Assembly: GCA_036365455.1 (NCBI GenBank) | Contig: JAWQUS010000020.1 | Location: 2,267,001 to 2,331,000, forward strand | DNA from: Macrosoma leucophasiata | Taxonomy: Eukaryota; Arthropoda; Insecta; Lepidoptera; Hedylidae | Direction: 5' to 3' | Length of the DNA: 64,000 nt | In this document: positions 3,032 to 52,406 of the stretch, one piece after another | Layout: the number at the start of each line of letters is the position of its first letter | How positions within the stretch are numbered: position 1 is the stretch's first letter | The notes under the pieces: generated by a model | Databases searched by the model: none | The model's input: the letters and a program-made list of their open reading frames with translations, nothing else | What the model was told of the DNA's origin: nothing | Program-made: the position numbers and the translations under genes

Positions 3032-6000
3032 GTACGTAGAGTATATTTTTATTTGGAGCTTACGAACTGGAAAATTAGGGGAAAAATAAAAATGCAGCAT
3101 GACTAAAGTCGAAGTTAATAAGTCGTATAATTTTTTACTATATGAACTAATAGTAGGGGGAGCCCAAGAGGGATTTTTTAAATTTACTCCAGTGCGTCAG
3201 ATTAAATAGGAGATACCTTGCATCCTCTTCAGTAGTTCCACTAAATCTAAGATTTCCATAAAGGGCCGAACCTTTAGGGCTTCCGCCACGAGCTTGCGTC
3301 TTATCCAAATCGTCAGAATTTTGGATCGAAGCTTTGATTGTGTTCACTTTACATCCTCTCTGAGTATCTGACATTCTTGTGTAATTTTTCACCTTCATTT
3401 TTCAAAGAATCAAATGTTTTTAAAAATGGCGCGGCATCAACCTTATGGGTCAAGAGCGAGTCATATATTCTGAGAGGGTGTAAATTGTGCCCAAACAATG
3501 CTCCTATTCAAAATTCAGACGATTCGGAAAATGATTAAGACCTTCGGCCTCGCCTCTATAGGTATATAAACTTTAGATTTAAGAAGCAAGGTATCTCCCA
3601 TATCTTAATCTGACGCGTTCAAGAAAATACAAAAAAAGCATCCTGGGCTCCCCCTACTACAATAAAAAAAAATAAAAAAGTTTTTTTTATTCATTGATTG
3701 TGTTCCTCTAACATAGCTTGTGTAGTCAGAAATGTTTTTCTTAAAATCTCCGGTCTAACATTTTCGAAAAGTATTTAAAAAGTGGGGATATTATTGCTGT
3801 ACTGACTTCTATTCGATTAAAAGGAGGCTCCTTCCCTCACGATTTTTTAAATGTGAATAAAAAACTTTAAAACTCTCCTAATTAATTATTTATTTACTTT
3901 ATAACACTGCATTGTGAGTTATGAGGTTGGCAAAACATTTATTTCAGCATGGCCTGTGTTAACTGATTAATGCAAGAGTGAACTATTTCACGATTAATAT
4001 TAAATGTTCCTATCTTATTCTAGGGCAGTTAATTATTTTAAGTATATTGTTGTATATATGTAGGTACATACCTAATATCAGTTTTAATAGAGAATTTTTT
4101 TTTGTCGTGAAGTAGCAAACAAGCAGCGTACTGTTCACATTGATGGTAAGTTAATACCGCACCCTATGTGTTTATAAACATCAAGATTTGAATGTAGATG
4201 CTAAACACTACCATTTAACGGCAAATAGATAAGTATACAAGGCAATGTGGTTTTACTATTGTTCAATTCATAAAATTTATTTGAAAAAAAAAATACCTAA
4301 CACAATATTCGTACTCTCTCGCTCATACATAATGTGCGAACAAGCCGCAACGACATAATATGACTTAGAAAAACCTAAACACAACTGAAAAATCAGGTTC
4401 ACTCCAATTACCACCCATTTTTAGTTGGATGCGTCTCTGTTTCCTGACGGATCCTCGAGGGAAGGTGCCAGTTAAAGTGGTCGCCAGGACCTTCGCTTCT
4501 GGCAAGACTGAGAAGTTAGTCTACCAGTGCCTGTCAGAACTTGGCCTCCCGGCTGGCAAGAATGAGGCTATGGAAAAAGAAGCTTTTACTTTTGACAAAT
4601 TCTACGCGCTATATCACAAGATCTGCCCGAGGAATGATATTGAAGAATTGTTTAGATCTATGTAAGTATTTAAGTAATAACTGCCTCAGTAGCGTAGTGG
4701 TAGGAGGCCACTACTATTACGCTGGGGGTCCTAGGTTCGATTCCCGGGTCGGGGACTATCAGAGATAACGGTTTGAAATCCGTTATCTCTGATAGTCCCC
4801 GACCCGCCTAATAACTGCCTCAGTAGCGTAGTGGTAGGAGGCCACTACTATTACGCTGGGGGTCCTGGGTTCGATTCCCGGGTCGGGGACTATCAGAGAT
4901 AACGGTTTGAAATCCGTTATCTCTGGTTCTATTGGGATTTTTCTATTTTCTGGAAGTTTCCCAGTACCTCGGACTTTGGCAATGTGCCCGGAGATGACAA
5001 CAGGTTCGCCACCGTTGTTACATGGGCCAAAACGTAACCGGCGAGTCGTGGGTGTTTGCATGTATGCTTGAATGCATGCATTTACGTCTGCCTACTCGGA
5101 GATTACAGGTTTGAAGTACCGTTATGAAAGTATTTGTTTTTAAGAAAGGAAGAAGGCTAATAAGCATGCACCTTAAGTGATGACTGCAGCCTATAGACAT
5201 TTATACAAAAACCAGGGATCAAATGCCATTTTTCGTAGTTGCCATTAGCCGACTATCTATCGAATCGTGTCTGCTAGCATATAAGTTAGAACTTCTCCAT
5301 TAAGAAATAAAGAAAAAATTGACTTCGGGCAGGAATCGAACCTACGACCTCAGGATAATCAACCAGTTCAACCGCTTTACCACTAAGCTACCGAAGCAGA
5401 CGTGGGCTCCGGTATGAATGTAAATTCACTCGCATGTGTTAATAATAATGGCAACCCTTGAGAAGTCCCACTGCTGGGCACGAGTCTCTCCTTTTTCAGG
5501 GGGGAAGAGGTCACCCTTCAATGTAGGTTGGTGGAGATACGGGCCAACCCGCTGTCGGATGTTTTTAAAGCACCCATAAGGCCTCCGACAAGGTTTAACG
5601 ACTGCTATCTATCGATAGCAACCGGGACCGACGGCTTAACGTGCCATCCGAATCACGGAAACGCGCATTTTAATTTGCCACTAGCGGTCACCCATCACAC
5701 ACCCGACCGCGCTCGTATCGCACAACTGAGTAGATCGCTTGTGATCTACACCAGACGCAAGGCCATGCGCGTTTTTGCGAAAAAAAACTGCACGTTCTCA
5801 ACTTCCATCCTCCTTTCAATTGCAGCACCCAGGGCAAATCAGACCGCATCAATCTCGAGCAGTTCGTGAACTTCCTGAACGAGAAGCAGAGGGACCCCCG
5901 CCTCAACGAGATCCTGTACCCCTTGTATGAGGACAAGCGAGCCATTGAAATCATCAACACATACGAACAGAACGACGAGGCGAAGGAAACAAGTGAGTTA

Positions 6001-9000
6001 TTTTAGGGTTGTGTGTGTAAGTGGTCAGATCCATGGTCGACAGCGAGAGATCGTGGCAGGCAATGCTTGCCTTCTGCGAGGTGGTTATGTTGCAGAAGGA
6101 GAAAAGAGAGAGGGAGGACATCGCCGTCTCTACCCCAATAAGACGTAGACGGCCTGGGCGGCGGCGGTTGGCGTACGCCCACCATCTGCCGCCCTAACAG
6201 GGACCTCCGGGCGATGGACTAGGGGACGTCCATCGTCCGAATGGAGATAGGTCCTGGTCTGTTTGGCGGCGGTTAGTTTACCGCGGGTCGCTGCTGCCCA
6301 TCCCGCGTTGTTATATTTACTACCGTCCGATTGGAATGGTTTGAAAGCCATTATTCGGTTGCACTTGTGGAAGAATTATCTTCCAGTAGAAGAAAATTCT
6401 TCCGCTAGAGGCTGGCACTGGGATCCTCACGTTCTGACGCCAGCAAGTCGAGCCATACGTCCAGAAAGCTGTTATTTGGTATGAATATACATATTAGCCA
6501 ACCTCAAACAAAGTGTAGCAAAAATTAAATAAAAATGGTTGTGTGTCAAATCGGTTTGGCTAATATGTATAATAATTTTCATAGCATAGATGCGTTAGCA
6601 GCCTAACGCTTAGGCTGATGGTGCCTCTCTATCGCTTGTTCCGCGCTCTCGCTTGCGCGCTCAGCTCAGGTGAAACGTGATATTTTTCTGTCTGTGCAGC
6701 CAGTGTTCCTCGATTTATTAGAAGTAATCACGTCAATTTTTAGGGCTTTTGGTTTCGTATATAGGTAAGTAGGTGGTATTTGTAGATTTAAAGGAAAAAA
6801 ACTGAATTTACTCCAATTACTCAATTTACTGAATTTAAAAATTGTTAAAATTCACGGGTTTAGCCTTAAATTGTTTTGTGTCTGTAATGTATATCATGGG
6901 CAATACAAATTATTTACAATTCCCATTGATTTAATTCCAGAATGCCTCACAAAAGACGGTCTGATCCGGTACCTGATGTCGGACGAGAATGCCCCGGTGT
7001 TCCTGGACCGATTAGATAACTATATGGACATGGATCAACCGCTGGCGCACTACTACATCAACTCGTCCCACAACACGTACTTGTCCGGGAGACAATTCGG
7101 CGGGAAGAGCTCCGTCGAGATGTATCGTCAAGTTTTGCTGGCTGGGTGCAGGTTTGTTCGATAATTAGAATCTCTTACATTTTGTCTAACTCATACATTA
7201 CACTGGTTCGTCCATGCACGGACAAGCAAATCGTAAGCTACCGCTTAATGCGTTGCCATCCCTGAGACCTAAGTTGTTATGTCTCTGTGATAGTTATTAC
7301 GGGGCCATACATTATCATCTTAACGAACAACGAAAGGAACACGATAATGATGAACATGTACGGCCCTGTAATTTCCGACACAGAGGCATAACACCTTAGG
7401 CCTCAGAAGTGGTAACACATCTGCATTTTTACCTCTGGTCTTTGTGTAAATGTCTATAGGCTGCAGTCATCACTTAACATCAATGTGAACTGCTTGCTTG
7501 TTTGCCACTTTAATTTAATTTAAAAAAAGAACACTATGCTGAACTGTTTGTCATTAATCAAATAATTCATTAAAAAATATTAACTGTAATATGGGAAAGA
7601 ACGAGCCACTGTTCAAGTGACACCATATAATTTGTATGTAAAAATTATTAATCATTAATCTATAAGTATGTACATCAAATTTATCAAAGAATGTCTTAGA
7701 TTTTCGAACCTACAGACCGAAATTGAGCAATCGAAATGGTTTTGTTAAATAGAAAAAGTTGTGCCTACTAACTTAAAATTTGTATGACCATTTCTCTTCC
7801 GACAGATGCGTAGAACTTGACTGCTGGGATGGCAAAGGGGAAGACGAGGAGCCAATAATCACCCACGGCATGGCCATGTGCACCGACATCCTCTTCAAAG
7901 ACGTCATATACGCGCTCAGAGACACCGCCTTCGTGACGTCAGACTACCCCATCATCCTGTCCTTTGAGAACCACTGCTGCAAGGCCCAGCAGTACAAACT
8001 GGCCAAATATTGCGACGAGATTCTCGGAGATCTTCTACTGAAGGAACCTTTAGCTGATTATCCTGTAAGTATATTTTGAATTAACGTAACTTCACGCCTG
8101 TAATCCCCGAAAGGGTAGACAGAGGTAAATGCATACATTCAAGCTTAAATGCAAACACCCACGATTCGCCGGTTACGTTTTTGCCCATGTAACAGGAGGC
8201 GAGCCTGATGACATCTCGGGGCACATTGCCAAACCTCGAGGTACTGGGAAATTTCCAGAAAATGGAAGGACGAAGGTTGTGCCCACCCACGGCCTTCGTC
8301 GTCGTCATCGGTCGTTTGTCGACGTCAGACTACTACAAGTTCTGTCATTAGATAACCAAGGGGTCTATATCGACCCCTGGGAGTCTATGAAAATCTGAAA
8401 GGGGTCTGCGTCAGCGAAAAAAAATTTGGGGGTCCATGAAATGAAAATGGGGGTCCACGATAATGGAACTCAACACATACACTGATAGTAACAATTTACT
8501 TACATCATACCAGTGATTCCCAAAGTGGTCCATGGGAGACCCGATGGGGGTCTAAAAACACACTTAACTTTCCTATCAACCTCACTACAAAGTGTAAACC
8601 ATTGTTACTTTTCCAGTTGGAACCAGGAATGCCGCTTCCACCGCCGTCGGCCCTCAAGAGGAAGATCATGATCAAGAACAAGAGACTGAAGCCTGAAGTA
8701 GAGAAGCAAGAGTTGGAGCTGTTCCGCCAGGGGCAGTTCGTTATTGAGGATGAGGAGAAGGAAGACGCTTCTGCTGTCGCTATACCCGATAAAAAGGTTG
8801 GGAATCAATGCGATGTATGTGTGTATCTATCTTCACGCCAGATCCCTAACGGGGTAGGCAGAGAGTGTAGAGCGCCAGATATCCCGGTCCTGACATACCT
8901 CTCGTGCCTCATCCACCTTCATCATTCTCTTCATATATGCACGCCGATTCCTAAGAATGGTAATATATCAAAGTTATTATATGTCAAACCTATAGGTATA

Positions 9001-12000
9001 AGGTAAGGTTGGATATCGTAGAATTAGTCTGCCCGTGACCACGGTAGCCGGAAAGCGACCGAAACATCGGGCAAGAGAGGTAGTATTGTATACGCGAGCA
9101 AATCTGCAAATATAATTTGTACAATATTAATAACCACCTTCTTTTCTCGTCAGCCGGAGGAGATAGTGGCGGAGGCGGCGGGCGCGGGGGACGACGCGCC
9201 GGCGCCCATCGCCTACACCGGCTCCACCACCAACGTGCACCCCTGGCTCTCCTCCATGGTCAACTACGCGCAGCCCATCAAGTTCCAGGGCTTCGAGGAG
9301 GCCGACAGTGAGTGTTCATGTAGCTTCCACTGGGAACCTCTCTGCCCATAGCTTGCCTGCACCCTGGCTCTCCTCCATGGTCAACTACGCGCAGCCCATC
9401 AAGTTCCAGGGCTTCGAGGAGGCCGACAGTGAGTGTTCATGTAGCTTCCACTGGGAACCTCTCTGCCCATAGCTTGCCTGCACCCTGGCTCTCCTCCATG
9501 GTCAACTACGCGCAGCCCATCAAGTTCCAGGGCTTCGAAGAGGCCGACAGTGAGTGTTCATGTAGCTTCCACTGGGAACCTCTCTGCCCATAGCTTGCCT
9601 GCACCCTGGCTCTCCTCCATGGTCAACTACGCGCAGCCCATCAAGTTCCAGGGCTTCGAGGAGGCCGACAGTGAGTGTTCATGTAGCTTCCACTGGGAAC
9701 CTCTCTGCCCATAGCTTGCCTGCACCCTGGCTCTCCTCCATGGTCAACTACGCGCAGCCCATCAAGTTCCAGGGCTTCGAAGAGGCCGACAGTGAGTGTT
9801 CATGTAGCTTCCACTGGGAACCTCTCTGCCCATAGCTTGCCTGCACCCTGGCTCTCCTCCATGGTCAACTACGCGCAGCCCATCAAGTTCCAGGGCTTCG
9901 AGGAGGCCGACAGTGAATGTTTATGTAGCTTCCACAGGGAACCTCTCTGCCCATTGCTCGCGTGCACCCTGGCTCTCCTCCATGGTCAACTACGCGCAGC
10001 CCATCAAGTTCCAGGGCTTCGAGGAGGCCGACAGTGAGTGTTCATGTAGCTTCCACTGGGAACCTCTCTGCCCATAGCTTGCCTGCACCCTGGCTCTCCT
10101 CCATGGTCAACTACGCGCAGCCCATCAAGTTCCAGGAGGCCGACAGTGAGTGTTCATGTAGCTTCCACTGGGAACCTCTCTGCCCATAGCTTGCCTGCAC
10201 CCTGGCTCTCCTCCATGGTCAACTACGCGCAGCCCATCAAGTTCCAAGGCTTCGAGGAGGCCGACAGTGAGTGTTCATGTAGCTTCCACTGGGAACCTCT
10301 CTGCCCATAGCTTGCCTGCACCCTGGCTCTCCTCCATGGTCAACTACGCGCAGCCCATCAAGTTCCAGGGCTTCGAGGAGGCCGACAGTGAGTGTTCATG
10401 TAGCTTCCACTGGGAACCTCTCTGCCCATAGCTTGCCTGCACCCTGGCTCTCCTCCATGGTCAACTACGCGCAGCCCATCAAGTTCCAGGGCTTCGAGGA
10501 GGCCGACAGTGAATGTTTATGTAGCTTCCACAGGGAACCTCTCTGCCCATTGCTCGCGTGCACCCTGGCTCTCCTCCATGGTCAACTACGCGCAGCCCAT
10601 CAAGTTCCAGGGCTTCGAGGAGGCCGACAGTGAGTGTTCATGTAGCTTCCACTGGGAACCTCTCTGCCCATAGCTTGCCTGCACCCTGGCTCTCCTCCAT
10701 GGTCAACTACGCGCAGCCCATCAAGTTCCAGGAGGCCGACAGTGAGTGTTCATGTAGCTTCCACTGGGAACCTCTCTGCCCCTAGCTTGCCTGCACCCTG
10801 GCTCTCCTCCATGGTCAACTACGCGCAGCCCATCAAGTTCCAAGGCTTCGAGGAGGCCGACAGTGAGTGTTCATGTAGCTTCCACTGGGAACCTCTCTGC
10901 CCATAGCTTGCCTGCACCCTGGCTCTCCTCCATGGTCAACTACGCGCAGCCCATCAAGTTCCAGGGCTTCGAGGAGGCCGACAGTGAATGTTTATGTAGC
11001 TTCCACAGGGAACCTCTCTGTCCATTGCTCGCGTGCACTCTGGCTCTCTCCTCCATGGTCAACTACGCGCAGCCCATCAAGTTCCAGGGCTTCGAGGAGG
11101 CCGACAGTGAGTGTTCATGTAGCTTCTACTGGGAACCTCTCTGCCCATAGCTTGCCTGCACCCTGGCTCTCCTCCATGGTCAACTACGCGCAGCCCATCA
11201 AGTTCCAGGGCTTCGAGGAGGCCGACAGTGAATGTTTATGTAGCTTCCACAGGGAACCTCTCTGCCCATTGCTCGCGTGCACCCTGGCTCTCCTCCATGG
11301 TCAACTACGCGCAGCCCATCAAGTTCCAGGGCTTCGAGGAGGCCGACAGTGAGTGTTTATGTAGCTTCCACAGGGAACCTCTCTGCCCATTGCTCGCGTG
11401 CACCCTGGCTCTCTCCTCCATGGTCAACTACGCGCAGCCCATCAAGTTCCAGGGCTTCGAGGAGGCCGACAGTGAGTGTTCATGTAGCTTCCACTGGGAA
11501 CCTGTCTGCCCATAGAGCAACACCGGATGGGAGGCACCATATGCAGGCTTTCCCCTCTGTCAAAGTACAAGACCAAATGGGTCTATACCTGTCGCCTGGA
11601 TGTTTAAATGTGTGCGTGAAATTGTTTCTGTATTTTGTTAAAGTCGAGGTGTGAGTTTCGTAGTAATAGATGATTTTTGTAGTGTGCATGAGTGTCGCAC
11701 GCATTTCCCTCCGCAAAAAATGACAGAGTGTTTTGCATCGGTAATACACGCTATGGCTACTCCCCTCCAGTCCGCCGCGGCCGGTGGCCCGTGTTGCTCT
11801 ATGTCTCTGCCCACTGCTCGCGTGCACCCTGACTCTCCATCATGGTCAACTAGGTGTAGCCCGCCCTTATCCTAGCGGTAACCCCAAATGAAAAAAGGCG
11901 GAGCTAAACAAATTATTTAATGAGGGTGCTCCTCATCACAGGGCGTGGTTCTAGCTAGACAATCTATCAGACTCCGGTGTAGATTATTCTAGTTTATAAA

Positions 12001-15000
12001 GTACCTACCTTTATCAAAAGTATAAATAAGGGTAGTTAATTTCATTATGTATAACTTTTAACTATTAAAAATAAATATTTTTTATGTATAAAGTTAATAT
12101 TTATTTCATAAATTATTTTTCAACTGAAAGCATAAAGAATTATTTACGGAACGTGATTTAGCAGCACTGTCCATACAGAGATGGCGGTAGCAGTAGCGCT
12201 GGACCGCTACGTAGGCGCAGGTATTATTTACAACACTTACAACAACCTAAATAATTCGGGTATTATGAAAAATGCAACGAGATTAATATGATGACAGTAG
12301 GTAATATACCATGTAGGTACTAAAACTATTTTTTACGGGTTTATTAATATACGCGAGATAAATCCGTAAAAAATAGTTTTATTTCAATGAGTGTAGCTCG
12401 CGAAAACCTAAGAACATATCATGTAGGTACTATATAGTAGCTATATGGTATATTACCTTCTATGACTAGCTGTATAGTAAGAGAACTAGTTAAGTGTACC
12501 AACACCCCCCAAATCCGCTTAATAAGCCCTTTACCCAGTGTAAGAACCGACAGATTACAGGTAATCTGATAAGCTTACTGACGTCACAGGGTAAAGGGCA
12601 AGTAAGCCTTTAGCTTCCTTATAAAGATTGTTTTAATGATAATTAGATGATTCCTATTTTGATTTCTGTACGATACTGTTACTCTCTCCGTTTTAAATAA
12701 ATATTTTTTTATGAAGTTTGGCTGCCGCAAACTTAATTAACTCTCCGCTTATTAAAAAACAATCAAAGATAGTATTTATTACAACTGTATAAGGTGCTCA
12801 TGTAGTCAAGCGGTCAGTTCCCTGATTATAGTGTCATTAAAAGCGGCTGCCGCAAACTTAATTAACTCTCCGCTTATTCAAAAACAATCAAAGATAGTAT
12901 TTATTACAACTGTATAAGGTGCTCATGTAGTCAAGCGGTCAGTTCCCTGATTATAGTGTCATTAAAAGTGGCTGCCGCAAACTTAATTAACTCTCCGCTT
13001 ATTCAAAAACAATCAAAGATAGTATTTATTACAACTGTATAAGGTGCTCATGTAGTCAAGCGGTCAGTTCCCTGATTATAGTGTCAATAAAAGCGTCATT
13101 ATTTTTCCATAACAGAGCGCAACATCTACCACAACATGTCGTCGTTCGCGGAGACGACCGGCATGAACTACCTGAAGACGCAGGCCATTGACTTCGTCAA
13201 CTACAACAAGCGGCAGATGTCCAGGATCTACCCCAAGGGCACCAGAGCTGACTCCTCCAATTACATGCCTCAGGTTGGTCTTAACACGTATTCACTGGGT
13301 AGACAGAGAGCGTGGAGCTTCAAATATCCGTTAACAGTGCCTCCTGCACATTAATCGATCTTTTCATACGTGTACGCCAGTTCCGATAACTCTTGACCCC
13401 ACTATCACATAGTATTCGATCTATCTGAGCAAGGTAGGTAGATTTTAGTATTCCTGGGCCTCCACAACCATAGATATCTTTTTTTATGTAATGGAAGTGG
13501 CAAACAAGCATGCAGTTCATATTGATGTTAAGTGATGACTGCAGCCTATAGACACGACACCCACACAGAGACCAAGGTCAAAATGCAGATGCGTTACTAC
13601 TCCTGAGGCCTAAGGTGTTATGCCTCTGTGCCGGAAATTACAAGGCCATACATTACCACCTGACCGGAACACGATAGTGCTGAACACTAGCAACCGAACT
13701 AGTAACAGAACCATTTAGCGGCAAGTATATTTGGTAATGCGGTGGTGCCTACACCCGCGAGCTCCGTCACTGGAGCTCTCTTCTCGTCTCGTCTGAAGTC
13801 GAATTTTTCTTTCCATATTTCTTTAAAAATAAAATATATTTCACAAGCATGTGTTAATGCGAAATAATATAAAAACAATTATTAAGGGTAAAAGCGACTG
13901 CTTTACGATATTCAATAAACTGAAAAGTCTATTATATCGGTTGCCTAACTAGCATAGTTGGTAATAGATGGCGCTGCTGCTACCATAAAGCAATGCAATA
14001 GATGTGAAGGAAAGATTTGATAAATCGGGCAGGGCTTCAGTAGCTCAATTGGAAGAGCGGCTGGACTAGATTCCCAGTAGGTCGCGAGTTCGAGTTTCGG
14101 CTGAAGTCGAATTTTTCTTTCCATTTTTCTTTAAAAATAAAAAATTATCATCCTGTTATCATTTATTAATTTAGAGTGCCCTCTTCGATTCACATGGCAA
14201 ATATAATTTGGCAGGTGTTCTGGAACGCGGGCTGCCAGATGGTGTCCCTGAACTTCCAGACGTCGGACCTGCCCATGCAGCTGAACCAGGGCAAGTTCGA
14301 GTACAACGGCAACTGCGGCTACCTCCTGAAGCCCGACTTCATGCGGCGCGCCGACCGCAGCTTCGACCCCTTCGCCGACGCGCCGGTGGACGGCGTCATC
14401 GCCGCTCAGTGTTCCGTGCAGGTCAGTTTCGATTTTATGGTGTAAAGCAAAAAAAATGATGAATAATTTTGGGAGAGTTAAAGTCTACCGGTGGTAGAGT
14501 TCCAGTGACGGAGCTGGCGGGCGTAGGCACCACCGCATTACCTAATATACTTGCCGCTAAATGGTAGTGTTCATCACTATCGTGTTCCGGTCAGGTGGTA
14601 ATGTACGGCCCTGTAATTTCAGGCACAGAGGCATATCACCTAATGCCTCAGGAGTGGCAGCGCATCTGCATTTTGAACTCTGGTCATTGTGTGGGTGTCT
14701 ATAGGCTGCAGTCATAACTTAACATCAATGTGAACTGCATGCTTGTTTGCCACTTTTATTACATTAAAAAAAAAAAAAAAAAAAATAAACAAAACACTTT
14801 TCTAGAAATCTGCTTCAACCATTGTCAGTGAGTGGAGCCTGCGTATCGTGGCGCGAAAATATACACCGATTAGGCGCGAGGCAATCGCACCTGATTGGTC
14901 TTGGTTGTCGCGTCACAAAACTTCACAAAAATGGCGTATTATAAGTTTGTAGGTACACGAGTATAAAGACGTACTACAAAATCGTGATGACCGCCGTATT

Positions 15001-24000: not shown

Positions 24001-27000
24001 CACCAAGAAATTCATGGAGGAAAGAAAGGTGGGTAATTTTTTTACTGTCACCAAAGCTCCGATGATTCCTATATTTTTTTATTTTTAAAGAAAAATGGAA
24101 AGAAAAATTTGACATCAGGCGAGACTCGAACTCGCGGCCTACTGGGAATCTAGTCCAGCCGCTCTTCGTAAAGGTCGCTTTTACCCTTTACGATATTCAA
24201 TAAACTGAAAAGTCTATTATATCGGTTGCCTAACTAGCATAGTTGGCAATAGATGGCGCTGCTGCTACCATAAAGCAATGCAATAGATGTGAAGGAAAGA
24301 TTTGACAAATCGGGCAGGGCTTCAGTAGCTCAATTGGAAGAGCGGCTGGACTAGATTCCCAGTAAGTCGCGAGTTCGAGTCTCGCCTTGAAGTCAAATTT
24401 TTCTTTCCATATTTCTTTAAAAATAAAAATATATTTTCACAAGCATGTGTTAATGCGAAATAATAAAAAACGATACCTATATTGTCACAGTGCCGACGGT
24501 AGGTACAACCATTGACACCCCAGGCAAGAATATTGTGGCATTTGAATATTGTTGAAAAAATAATACTCGATTTTGGTATCCTTAAGTGAAGCGCACATGG
24601 CCCCGCGGCTGGTGTAGATCGTAAGCGATCTACTCGGTTAATCGATACGGGCGCGTTCGGGTGTGTGATGGGTGACCGCTAGTGGCAAATTAAAATGCTC
24701 GTTTTCGTGCCTCGGAGGGCATGTTTAGCCGTCGGTCCCGGTTGCTATCGATAGATAGCAGTCGTATAACTATGTCGGAGGCCTTATGGGCGGTTTGAAA
24801 ACATCCGACAGCGGGTTGGCCACTATCCCACCCACCTCCACCAATCCGCATAGGAGCAGCGGGGTAGAGTAAGCTCCAGGCCTCCCCCCAAAAAGGGGAG
24901 AGATTCGTGCCCAGCAGTGGGACGTATAATGGGTTGCCATTATTATTATTTAAATATCTGGGCGACAGGAATTTGGTCTTGTACTTTGACAGAGGGGTAA
25001 GCCAGCATTATGGCTACTTTCATCCGGTCCGCCGCGGCCGGTGGCCCGTGTTGCTCTATGCCTATGCACGAGTGTATAGAAAATTAAAAATTGGCTATCT
25101 TTTTCAGACGCAAGGAAACAAGCACGGTCGCGAAAAGGAGAAACTGAAAGTAACGCACGACAAACAGATGGAAGAACTGTCGAAAGATGTAGATAATGTG
25201 AGGATTTGTAAACATTTATAACTTTTAAGTAAGGAGTAGGTACGGTACGTGACCGCTCCACCTTTACTAGTGGTGGAGATTTCTACTAGTAAATCATTCA
25301 TCGGAACACCGACATGGCTCACGGAATAGCGAGACTCAAGTGGCAGTGGGCAGGGCACATAGCTCGAAGAACTAACGGCCGTTGGGGCAGAACAGTTCTT
25401 GAGTGACGAGTCCTACAAGATGGACCGACGACCTGGTGAAGTTCGCGGGCAATCGCTGGATGAGGGCGGCCCAGGGCCGTTCGTTGTGGCAATCTTTAGG
25501 GAGGCCTTTGTTCAGCAGTGGATTTTTTTTTAATTTTTTTTTTTATGTAATAAAAGTGGCAAACAAGCATGCAGTTCACATTGATGTTAAGTGATGACTG
25601 CAGCCTATAGACACCCACACAATGACCAGAGGTCAAAATGCAGATGCGCTGCCACTCCTGAGGCCCAAGGTGTTATGGCCTCTGTGCCTGAAATTACAGG
25701 GCCGTACATTACCACCTGACCGGAACACGATAGTGCTGAACACTACCATTTAGCGGCAAGTATATTAGGTAATGCGGTGGTGCCTACGCCCGCGAGCTCC
25801 GTCACTGGAGCTCTACCACCAGTAAAAGGATGCCTTTTGTCTGAAGTGATGATGAAATACAATAACGCATGGTGGGCAGCAACATACGCGACAAAACTAT
25901 CGCCACTGCGAACGCCAACCCGCAAGTCAAAAGTGGAGATTATGACATATATTACTGGTGGTAGAGCTCCAGTGACGGAGCTCGCGGGTGTAGGCACCAC
26001 CGCATTACCTAATATACTTGCCGCTAAATGGTAGTGTTCAGCACTATCGTGTTCCGGTCAGGTGGTAATGTACGGCCCTGTAATTGCCAGCACAGAGGCA
26101 TAACACCTAAGGCCTCAGAAGTGGCAACGCATCTGCATCTTGACCTCTGATCTTTGTGTGATTGTCTATAGGCTGCAGTAATCACTTAACATCAATGTGA
26201 ACTGCAAATTTGGTTGCCACTTTAATTACATAAAAAAAAAGAAAATATTGGGGGAGGCTTTTGTCCAGCTGTAAATGATGATCTTTCGGCTGATATGATG
26301 ATGACAGATGAACAGCTTGTAATTGTATGAAATGAAATATTTCTTACGACTCAAGATCACTTTTTTTTGTTATAAACCACTCCAACCTATGAACATACCG
26401 AAAATTCAAAGTCTCACATACAAAACAAGGTCTCACATCAAAGATGTTTGAAGAGTTAGATTGATAATACACACGCTTTTCTATGAAATCTGCTTCAACC
26501 ATTTTAAGTGGGTAGAGCCTATCGTGGCGCAAAAATATACCCTAATTAGGCGCGAGGCAAACACACCTGATTGGTCTTTGTTGTCGCGTCACAAAAAGAG
26601 TTTGCGTACAGGCATTGCCTGGCGACTTGAGGTTCGTGATGCCACTAGGACGCACCAGAATATCAGCTGCAGCCACTGTTGCAGCAATCAGCTGAGGTGG
26701 ATGCCGATTTTTTTGGCTTCCCACAACAACCAAATATATAATAGTATTTTTACTTGTTTTTAATTTTTTTAACTGCCTCGGTAGCCTAGTGGTAGCAGGC
26801 CACTACTACTACGCTGAGGTCCTGGGTTCGATTCCCGGGTAGGGGGTTATCAGAGATGATGGTGTAAAGTCCATTATCTCTGGTTCTATTGGGATTTTTC
26901 CATTTTCTGGAAATTTTCCAGTACCTTGAAGTTTGGTAATGTGCCCGGAGATGTCAACAGGCTCGCCACCTGTTACATGGGCCAAAAACGTAACCGGCGA

Positions 27001-49640: not shown

Positions 49641-50338
49641 ATTTTCTTTAATTTCTTAAGTTCACTCGCATGTGTTATTGCGATAAAATAAATTGTACAA
49701 TTATCTCTATAGCATAGCTCTATAGTTACTAATGGGTCATGGTAAGATTTGTCAAAAAAAGATATAATGAAACATGGTAAAACAGCTTTGAAATAATATT
49801 TTGTTTATCATAGTTCAAAATTAACGTACCATGTGACGCTGGGCTCTGCCGGACTTGATGTTGTGATCCGGCAAGACAACAACAATGCGAGACAGGATAC
49901 ATCCAACGTTTGGTTTCCCTAAGTCAGAAGCAACAGTTGCCAGCTTCAAGCTTCAGTTCGCAGTACATCGCACATCTGCATTCAGTTGCAGGTTTATCGT
50001 ATCTGTCTTACACAATACCGCTCCAACACCACTCTCGTCAAGGTCACGCACCGACAGCGAGCAAGCAACCAGCTGTTCCCACGCTTACAACTAGCAGTCG
50101 ACACTACACTATACTTTTTGGCAGTCGAAGCGGGAAATCGGACCTGGATTCATGACCATATGGGCACCATACAGTAGTAATAATAATAAACTAAAGATTG
50201 ATTTTCGATAAGCGGTGAGTAGGTAGGTACCTACACCGCGTAGGCCAGTCGCTTGAAGGTTCGCGAGGCTTCAGCTATTGAGTGGTACGATGGCGGTAAG
50301 CTCAGTTTAGCGACCCGTTTGGAACCCATGTAAATATT

Positions 50339-50965: not shown

Positions 50966-52406
50966 AAGTATTTTCTTGTAAACAACAAGACTCGTTATCT
51001 TCACGAAGTAGTAGTATTATCAGGGAACTAGCCGCTTGACCATATGAGTACCTTACACGGTGTTGATGAATGCATTTTTGATTGGTTTTGGATATGCGGA
51101 GATTTTCCTGACTGTACCTAAGTATTTACTGGAATTCGTTGTGATGTAGAAAAAGTTTGTTGGTTGTTATTGAAAGGAGAGGGATAAAAATAATAATACT
51201 TCATAAAAAGCTTAACTAATGTTTTATTTGTCGGTTTAACGTACAGACGTAAGGCATCCTCCCAACACTATTGGCACACAGAACCATCATTTACATTACA
51301 TTCGACTAAAAACGCATAAAATGAGCATAATATCACTTCACATCGGACCACAAACATTGGAATGTTGAGTTTAGGAAACAAATGGAATACCCAAATGTTA
51401 TACACATAAATGTCCATTTAAGATTTATTTCGCCAGTCCATTGTCCATGCGAAAATTTGCCAGATAACAGAATAATTATAAAAAAAATCAAGACTAGAGT
51501 TTTTAAGTAAACGCGCCGTGAAATCAAATATTTACAGTGTACGCTCGTCAAAATGTATTTAAAAAATATATATAAACCAACCTCGATTAACGTTTTGTGA
51601 CAATTGAAATTTATTTTAAAAATAAGAGATTCTTAAAATAATTTGGTTTAGATTTGGTTTGTACTACGTAATTAAACAAAAAAACAATTATTTAAAAAAA
51701 AAATCGGCCATCACTCAAGAATAATTCGACTTTGAAAAGTTTTAACAATAAATAAAGTGCGGTAGTCACAAAAATACATTGACATAAAAAATATGTTTAT
51801 AAGAAAGTAAATGTTATTTATACAGATGTCGCTAATTGTTTTTTTTTTTTTTTGAAAAATCACCACAGTACTGGACAAAACGATTGGCACTGTCCGAAGA
51901 AAACTTAAACAATACTTAAACGTAGACAAAATAGAAAATTTAATTTCAATCGAGTAAATATCCAATACTGCAAGAAATACTGTTGAATTCACGACGATTT
52001 CTCATAAATATAAATAACTGTATTAATTAAAAAAAAAACAAAAAAAAAAAATGGACGCAAATCAATTTCAAATTATTGCACAGTAGAAATAAAAAAATAA
52101 TCATCTATGCTTTACTGGCCAGTCCTTTTGACTAATCGAACTAATCCGTACAAGTTCCATTGGATCGTTCCCGCTAATATTAGGCACTGGATTCCGCTAA
52201 TATCAAAGCTAATTTTAATTTTACTCCTCGTTACACATAATCTTATACTTTTACGCGTGACTTAAGCACTTCAAAGGGTATAATAGGGCCTTCCTTCGAA
52301 AAAAATTGATACTAATGATGGTTAAACACGTGATGGTAAAGTAGTAAAACTATTGACTGAGGGGTATAACTCCATACCTAATACAGTACAGCAAGAAATA
52401 TTGAAT
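50966..52406. other. AT-rich DNA, no feature supported
   Basis: Contains homopolymer A/T runs (for example 51839-51855) and scattered poly(A)-signal words on the minus strand. It could be distal 3' UTR or flank of the 60-kb minus-strand gene, but nothing shows this. Confidence 0.4.

Follow-up and report, generated by a model that had tools for sequence, protein, structure and literature searches.

The closest described systems each resemble, in part, a tandem array that we analyzed in a PLC-beta gene of Macrosoma leucophasiata (Lepidoptera, Hedylidae). We call this gene norpA, a provisional name taken from the Drosophila sequences. Intragenic minisatellites, or VNTRs, have tandem variant units, higher-order repeats, and decayed edges, as does the norpA array. 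Unlike these, the norpA unit spans the end of a coding exon together with a working donor, so that every copy brings in a splice site of full strength, and unit 1 itself belongs to the coding sequence of the protein. In the Rogers model of intron gain, tandem duplication likewise copies coding sequence along with splice signals, as in reports on potato RdRp (PMC4974935) and Drosophila (PMC2891723). Here, the duplicated signal is instead an existing donor, not an exonic AGGT, and the intron is old. Because this intron is common to a paralogous gene, with the same position and phase, we rejected intron gain of this kind. Genes with dual-specific splice sites, such as UBC and VCX3A, likewise carry many equivalent splice sites in repeats; there (PMC10809524), a single repeat site acts both as donor and as acceptor, and intron length is a multiple of the unit. 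We do not place norpA among them because its acceptor (13114-13115) lies outside the array, and its intron of 3808 nt is no multiple of 121. Finally, minigenes with two donors offer equal 5' splice sites to one acceptor (PMC9225289, and Reed and Maniatis as cited therein), with the donors 52 nt apart on a plasmid, whereas norpA is a natural gene in which 15 identical donors and four weaker ones are found together. Among the titles and opening lines of abstracts in the literature searched, we found no natural splice-donor array of this kind.

The window, that is, the whole stretch of DNA analyzed, comprises 64,000 nucleotides of a 21.0-Mb contig (C20) in a 616-Mb assembly of 61 contigs, and its interspersed repeats have a lepidopteran appearance. 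We joined the exons of the plus strand gene by eye from open frames. Pfam matches over cut-off to PF00388, PF00387, and PF00168 (PI-PLC X, Y, and C2) were obtained, and the best solved relatives of the joined query are PLC-beta proteins, with 3qr0 as the top chain (E 5.3e-146). By these matches the gene is a PLC-beta, which agrees with an earlier call of a phototransduction-type PLC. The exon at issue (9154-9307, plus strand, 154 nt) encodes the end of the X-Y linker and the start of the Y domain, as placed by domain match and joined frame, and it is the 3' end of this exon that has been amplified. The Y match starts at residue 169 of the joined query and the exon ends at residue 188, so the repeated coding part takes in about 20 residues at the beginning of the Y domain; the donor is repeated with it. 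The upstream intron measures 357 nt (8797-9153, with the preceding exon end placed by eye). Donor 1 (9308-9309, plus strand) reads ACA/GTGAGT, the slash marking the exon end. Across the downstream intron, the acceptor AG at 13114-13115 forms the end of AACAG, and the next coding exon (13116-13273, plus strand) is joined in an open frame, as the preliminary description had it.

The array runs from 9236 to 11515 on the plus strand. TRF reports a period of 121 bp, 19.0 copies, 95% matches, and a score of 4123, and a cut at a fixed anchor gives 19 units with one donor each, separated by 18 spacings (15 of 121, two of 112, and one of 123 bp). The 19-fold array of 121 bp claimed at the outset is confirmed. 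Each unit consists of the last ~64 coding bases of the exon (9244-9307 in unit 1) and ~57 bp of intron, arranged head-to-tail; the coordinates agree with the proposed make-up of exon end, 5' splice site, and intron start. As a head-to-tail run of similar units, the array is a minisatellite. Units share a mean pairwise identity of 97.3% (ungapped; minimum 92.0%), six of the 19 are identical to the letter, and there are ten distinct unit sequences. We distinguish two types: type A with 14 units, and type B with units 6, 11, 15, 17, and 18. Units 6-9 reappear as units 11-14 with a common 9-bp deletion and a common CAG-to-CAA change, unit 13 having one additional change. Unit comparison thus defines a higher-order repeat with copies at 9849-10323 and 10445-10919 (both plus strand), and because units 6-9 recur in this way, blocks of units must have been duplicated. 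Together with the near-identity of the units, the higher-order repeat supports the recent expansion suggested before. Variation in copy number among individuals is plausible a priori.

No array with a TRF score of at least 1000 occurs in a 200-kb background sample from 20 contigs, each of which contributed 10 kb from an identical position. A search of the 616-Mb genome, which scores best candidates only, found no second site of the array sequence. A dispersed satellite or transposable element was considered as the source and rejected, as the best candidates in the genome are confined to one place; therefore, no dispersed repeat seeded the array. In 9000-13400, no Rfam family matched at the gathering score. 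Bacterial-type promoter and terminator patterns were also absent, a pattern type that is irrelevant for an insect. The same intron contains a second tandem repeat by TRF (125 bp x 3; 12720-13095, plus strand) just before the acceptor, with diverged matches (74-79%) at 51015-51105 and 50153-50220. Another, of 134 bp x 1.9 (4675-4925), begins about 12 nt past the donor of an upstream exon and contains what we take to be a tRNA-like stretch.

Beyond its reported end at 11514, the array continues. A 293-bp element with 16-bp inverted ends (11511-11803) is inserted inside unit 19. Its ends match at 94%, and the flanking 8 bp form an imperfect duplication (7/8), the single mismatch being a change private to unit 19. 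Terminal inverted repeats and an 8-bp target duplication are the hallmark of hAT-type elements. Parts of the insert also match 24948-25067 of the window. On its far side lie a decayed junction and the start of a 20th copy (11804-11862, plus strand), identical to a type B unit at 52 of 59 positions. When the insert and one duplicate are removed, the empty site aligns to unit 18, a type B unit, at 142 of 151 positions and gapless, and therefore the array once reached at least 11862. The count of 19 units given in the preliminary description holds, but its end coordinate does not, as unit 19 is split by the element and a decayed 20th copy extends to 11862. Units 1-5 belong without exception to type A, and downstream of them come every type B unit and the decayed copy; fresh copies therefore adjoin the working exon.

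Not all donors are equivalent. What had been called 19 nearly identical donors are 15 that read GTGAGT and four (units 6, 11, 15, and 17) that read GTGAAT and are weaker, with a predicted pairing to the U1 5' end of -1.9 kcal/mol, as opposed to -7.6 kcal/mol for GTGAGT. Only donor 1 keeps the frame, as originally claimed. When donors 2-19 are spliced to 13116, all 18 products stop at an in-frame TAG (9349-9351, plus strand), and we rejected a longer protein through the array on this basis. In type A units, this trinucleotide also supplies an acceptor-like AG.

In human genes, exons under exon definition that have donors of similar strength and long flanking introns prefer the upstream donor, and minigenes with strong donors and 365-nt introns use it exclusively, according to PMC9225289. 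The same paper describes a downstream majority in every class when donor strengths are unmatched, and for recognition across introns it gives the converse rule, with reference to Reed and Maniatis. We predict that donor 1 wins in norpA because introns of 357 nt and 3808 nt flank the exon and because of the rule in PMC9225289. With long introns on both sides, the 154-nt exon would be recognized across the exon and donor 1 would be chosen. Dominance of donor 1 is thus expected, by a rule taken from human genes, and donors 2-19 would be mostly silent or would yield premature-stop transcripts. Tuning of splicing by the extra donors, as initially suggested, is unproven and would not be expected on present evidence.

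We regard duplication of the same junction in a paralogous gene as the new and most interesting result. Of 27 genomic matches in a protein search, 14 are array units, five are the norpA-type exons, and four lie on contig C5. The paralogous PLC-beta gene is on the minus strand of C5, where the exons examined span about 2717120 to 2733836. Both genes have the intron at a common position in phase 1 (FEEAD/K versus FENAE/K). At this junction, TRF identifies a repeat of 160 bp x 2.9 at 6686-7148 of the reverse complement of locus L041 (C5:2728300-2738299), to which the following paralog coordinates refer. Copies 1 and 2 are identical across 160 bp, and copy 3 has four differences at aligned sites and a 4-bp gap. 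The three donors, at 6805, 6965, and 7125, each read AGA/GTGAGT. The paralog exon lies at 6604-6805 and a later one at 8242. Gene homology accounts for the likeness between norpA and the paralog in the exonic halves of their units, but the intronic halves are unrelated (score 12); therefore, the two duplications are independent. Further along, 7184-7418 aligns to the whole exon with 166 identities, 46 mismatches, and 77 gap positions, for a score of 94 as compared with a maximum of 50 among 300 shuffles. From this alignment, the stretch is probably an older, decayed copy of the whole paralog exon. The same intron holds a perfect tandem duplication of 255 bp x 2 (7501-8010). TRF found only one repeat (35 bp x 2.1) at the other PLC loci analyzed (L031, L034, L036, L038, and L039). 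The reverse complement of neighbouring L042 has a long open frame at 4584-5243, which presumably resembles a mariner-type transposase.

Beside the arrays, the order and decay of their units, the frames, the element insertion, and the paralog parallel, all of which are observed directly, we propose with a probability of roughly 0.6 that norpA carries a minisatellite grown at a duplication-prone junction, in which donor 1 is chosen by exon definition and the other donors are mostly silent. The array would have started with a tandem duplication from inside the coding exon, across the donor, and into the start of the intron. Growth would have followed by unequal exchange or replication slippage, with fresh copies placed beside the working exon, old ones at the far end, and all after the first within the long intron. 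In the paralog, the homologous junction underwent a recent duplication of its own and probably an earlier one in the distant past. We give somewhat less than an even chance to the tentative suggestion that duplication recurs at the exon-intron junction where the Y domain of PLC-beta begins, as in both paralogs of this insect, perhaps because the G-rich stretch encoding the X-Y linker stalls replication. The coding strand of norpA has a G-rich tract (peak window 9161-9191, plus strand; G4Hunter 1.43) ~45 bases upstream of the array, weaker than that of the paralog, in which a canonical quadruplex-type motif (6667-6685; G4Hunter 1.97) abuts the repeat start at 6686. In the 200-kb sample, 0.006% of windows score at least 1.97 and 0.055% at least 1.43, but coding DNA is GC-richer than this sample. 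Seven separate G-rich peaks in the window exceed that of norpA and have no listed array. Because of the GC-richness of coding DNA and these seven peaks, we offer a G-rich tract as duplication trigger only as conjecture. Special DNA folding was rejected (z +0.82 for the norpA unit, -0.68 for the upstream part of the exon, and -1.89 for the paralog stretch). No common short homology was shown at the duplication breakpoints. As the paralog intron continues after copy 3 unlike the unit junction, and the original norpA intron beyond the breakpoint is hidden, we dropped an origin by short homology.

The two junction repeats could also be coincidental: norpA would hold a minisatellite of the usual kind, the paralog a short repeat of unrelated origin, and nothing would be special about the junction. 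The two units are indeed unrelated in their intronic halves, and both introns are rich in repeats (125 bp x 3 in norpA and 255 bp x 2 in the paralog). The repeat-rich paralog neighbourhood and the second array in the norpA intron speak against reading the parallel as meaningful, and local repeat density could explain it. However, tandem repeats with a period of at least 80 are scarce. The 200-kb sample contains three, each of about two copies, covering 942 bases (0.47%), and in the window outside the array they cover 627 of 61,720 bases (1.0%). In L041, the other such repeat, the 255-bp duplication, covers 510 of 10,000 bases (5.1%), and L042 has none. For the homologous junction, the chance of falling within a repeat like these ranges from about 0.5 to 5%, according to which background is taken. 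Among the norpA exon ends, modeled by eye, one of 12 (9307) is inside a repeat of this class. A listing of 137 kinase-domain matches, inspected by eye, contains no pair of the same part within 600 bp on one strand, although short copies would escape such a listing. Since these repeats cover 0.47% of the sample, but about 5% of the paralog neighbourhood, and since the paralog probably also carries an older copy of this exon, we consider coincidence unlikely. Far less credible still is an assembly artefact in which the assembler multiplied the copies. The copy number of long arrays can be wrong, but the ten distinct units in irregular order, the 9-bp and 2-bp indels, and the decayed copy beyond the inserted element are unlike a looped assembly, and the contig that holds the window is 21 Mb long and one of only 61 in the assembly.

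Two further explanations give the copies a function. The array might be a selected splice modulator, with the output of the gene governed by copy number through 18 extra donors that rival donor 1 or hold U1. Fourteen of these 18 donors are GTGAGT like donor 1, and variation among all units is concentrated in the intronic half, with 2/64 exonic and 11/57 intronic sites varying (Fisher p = 0.006). The type A and B consensus sequences likewise differ at 0/64 exonic and 6/57 intronic sites (Fisher p = 0.009), which weakly suggests that A and B diverged under constraint on the exon half, for example as alleles of the working junction that were later united. However, the contrast between exonic and intronic sites drops to p = 0.15 when the linked A/B differences are treated as one event. 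Neither exonic substitution (GAG to GAA, CAG to CAA) alters the amino acid, and the 9-bp deletion preserves the frame. The chance that two random G-to-A changes are both synonymous is ~(6/17) squared, or 0.12; therefore, we claim no selection on the exonic variants. The remaining four extra donors have a weakened sequence, exon definition (PMC9225289) predicts use of donor 1, and a minisatellite accounts for the array without selection, leaving a modulator improbable. We are hardly more inclined to the idea that the copies serve as alternative exons. Copies 2 and 3 of the paralog are preceded by an acceptor-like TTTCTTTCATAAG, and each would form a 117-nt cassette that repeats the end of the X-Y linker and is open in frame; read-through to donors 2 and 3 meets a stop at once. 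From these frames, both copies could be in-frame cassettes. The X-Y linker is an autoinhibitory region, according to PMC12195575. In norpA, an acceptor-like AG is found at 13 of 18 unit junctions, with 13/20 pyrimidines compared with 14/20 at the true acceptor, and together with the donor of the following full-length copy it would define a 77-nt, frame-shifting pseudo-exon. Against such a role, introns between adjacent copies would be only 43-44 nt, below the size expected for splicing, which has a minimum intron length above this, and the second paralog copy does not differ from the first and may simply be new. We consider an exon supply quite unlikely.

A minisatellite at a duplication-prone junction therefore remains our preferred reading. 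Choice among equal donors, whether the one nearest the upstream acceptor or that nearest the downstream acceptor, is tested on two-site constructs (PMC9225289). In norpA, a vision-type gene, only the donor farthest from the acceptor can make the enzyme, which poses the question of donor choice in a native setting. With the paralog parallel, it becomes testable whether some exon-intron junctions are hot spots of duplication, which would be a route to splice-site turnover and new exons. If duplication does recur at this junction, these PLC-beta genes would offer donors that compete in nature, 19 of them in norpA and three in the paralog, along with selectable in-frame linker cassettes in the paralog.
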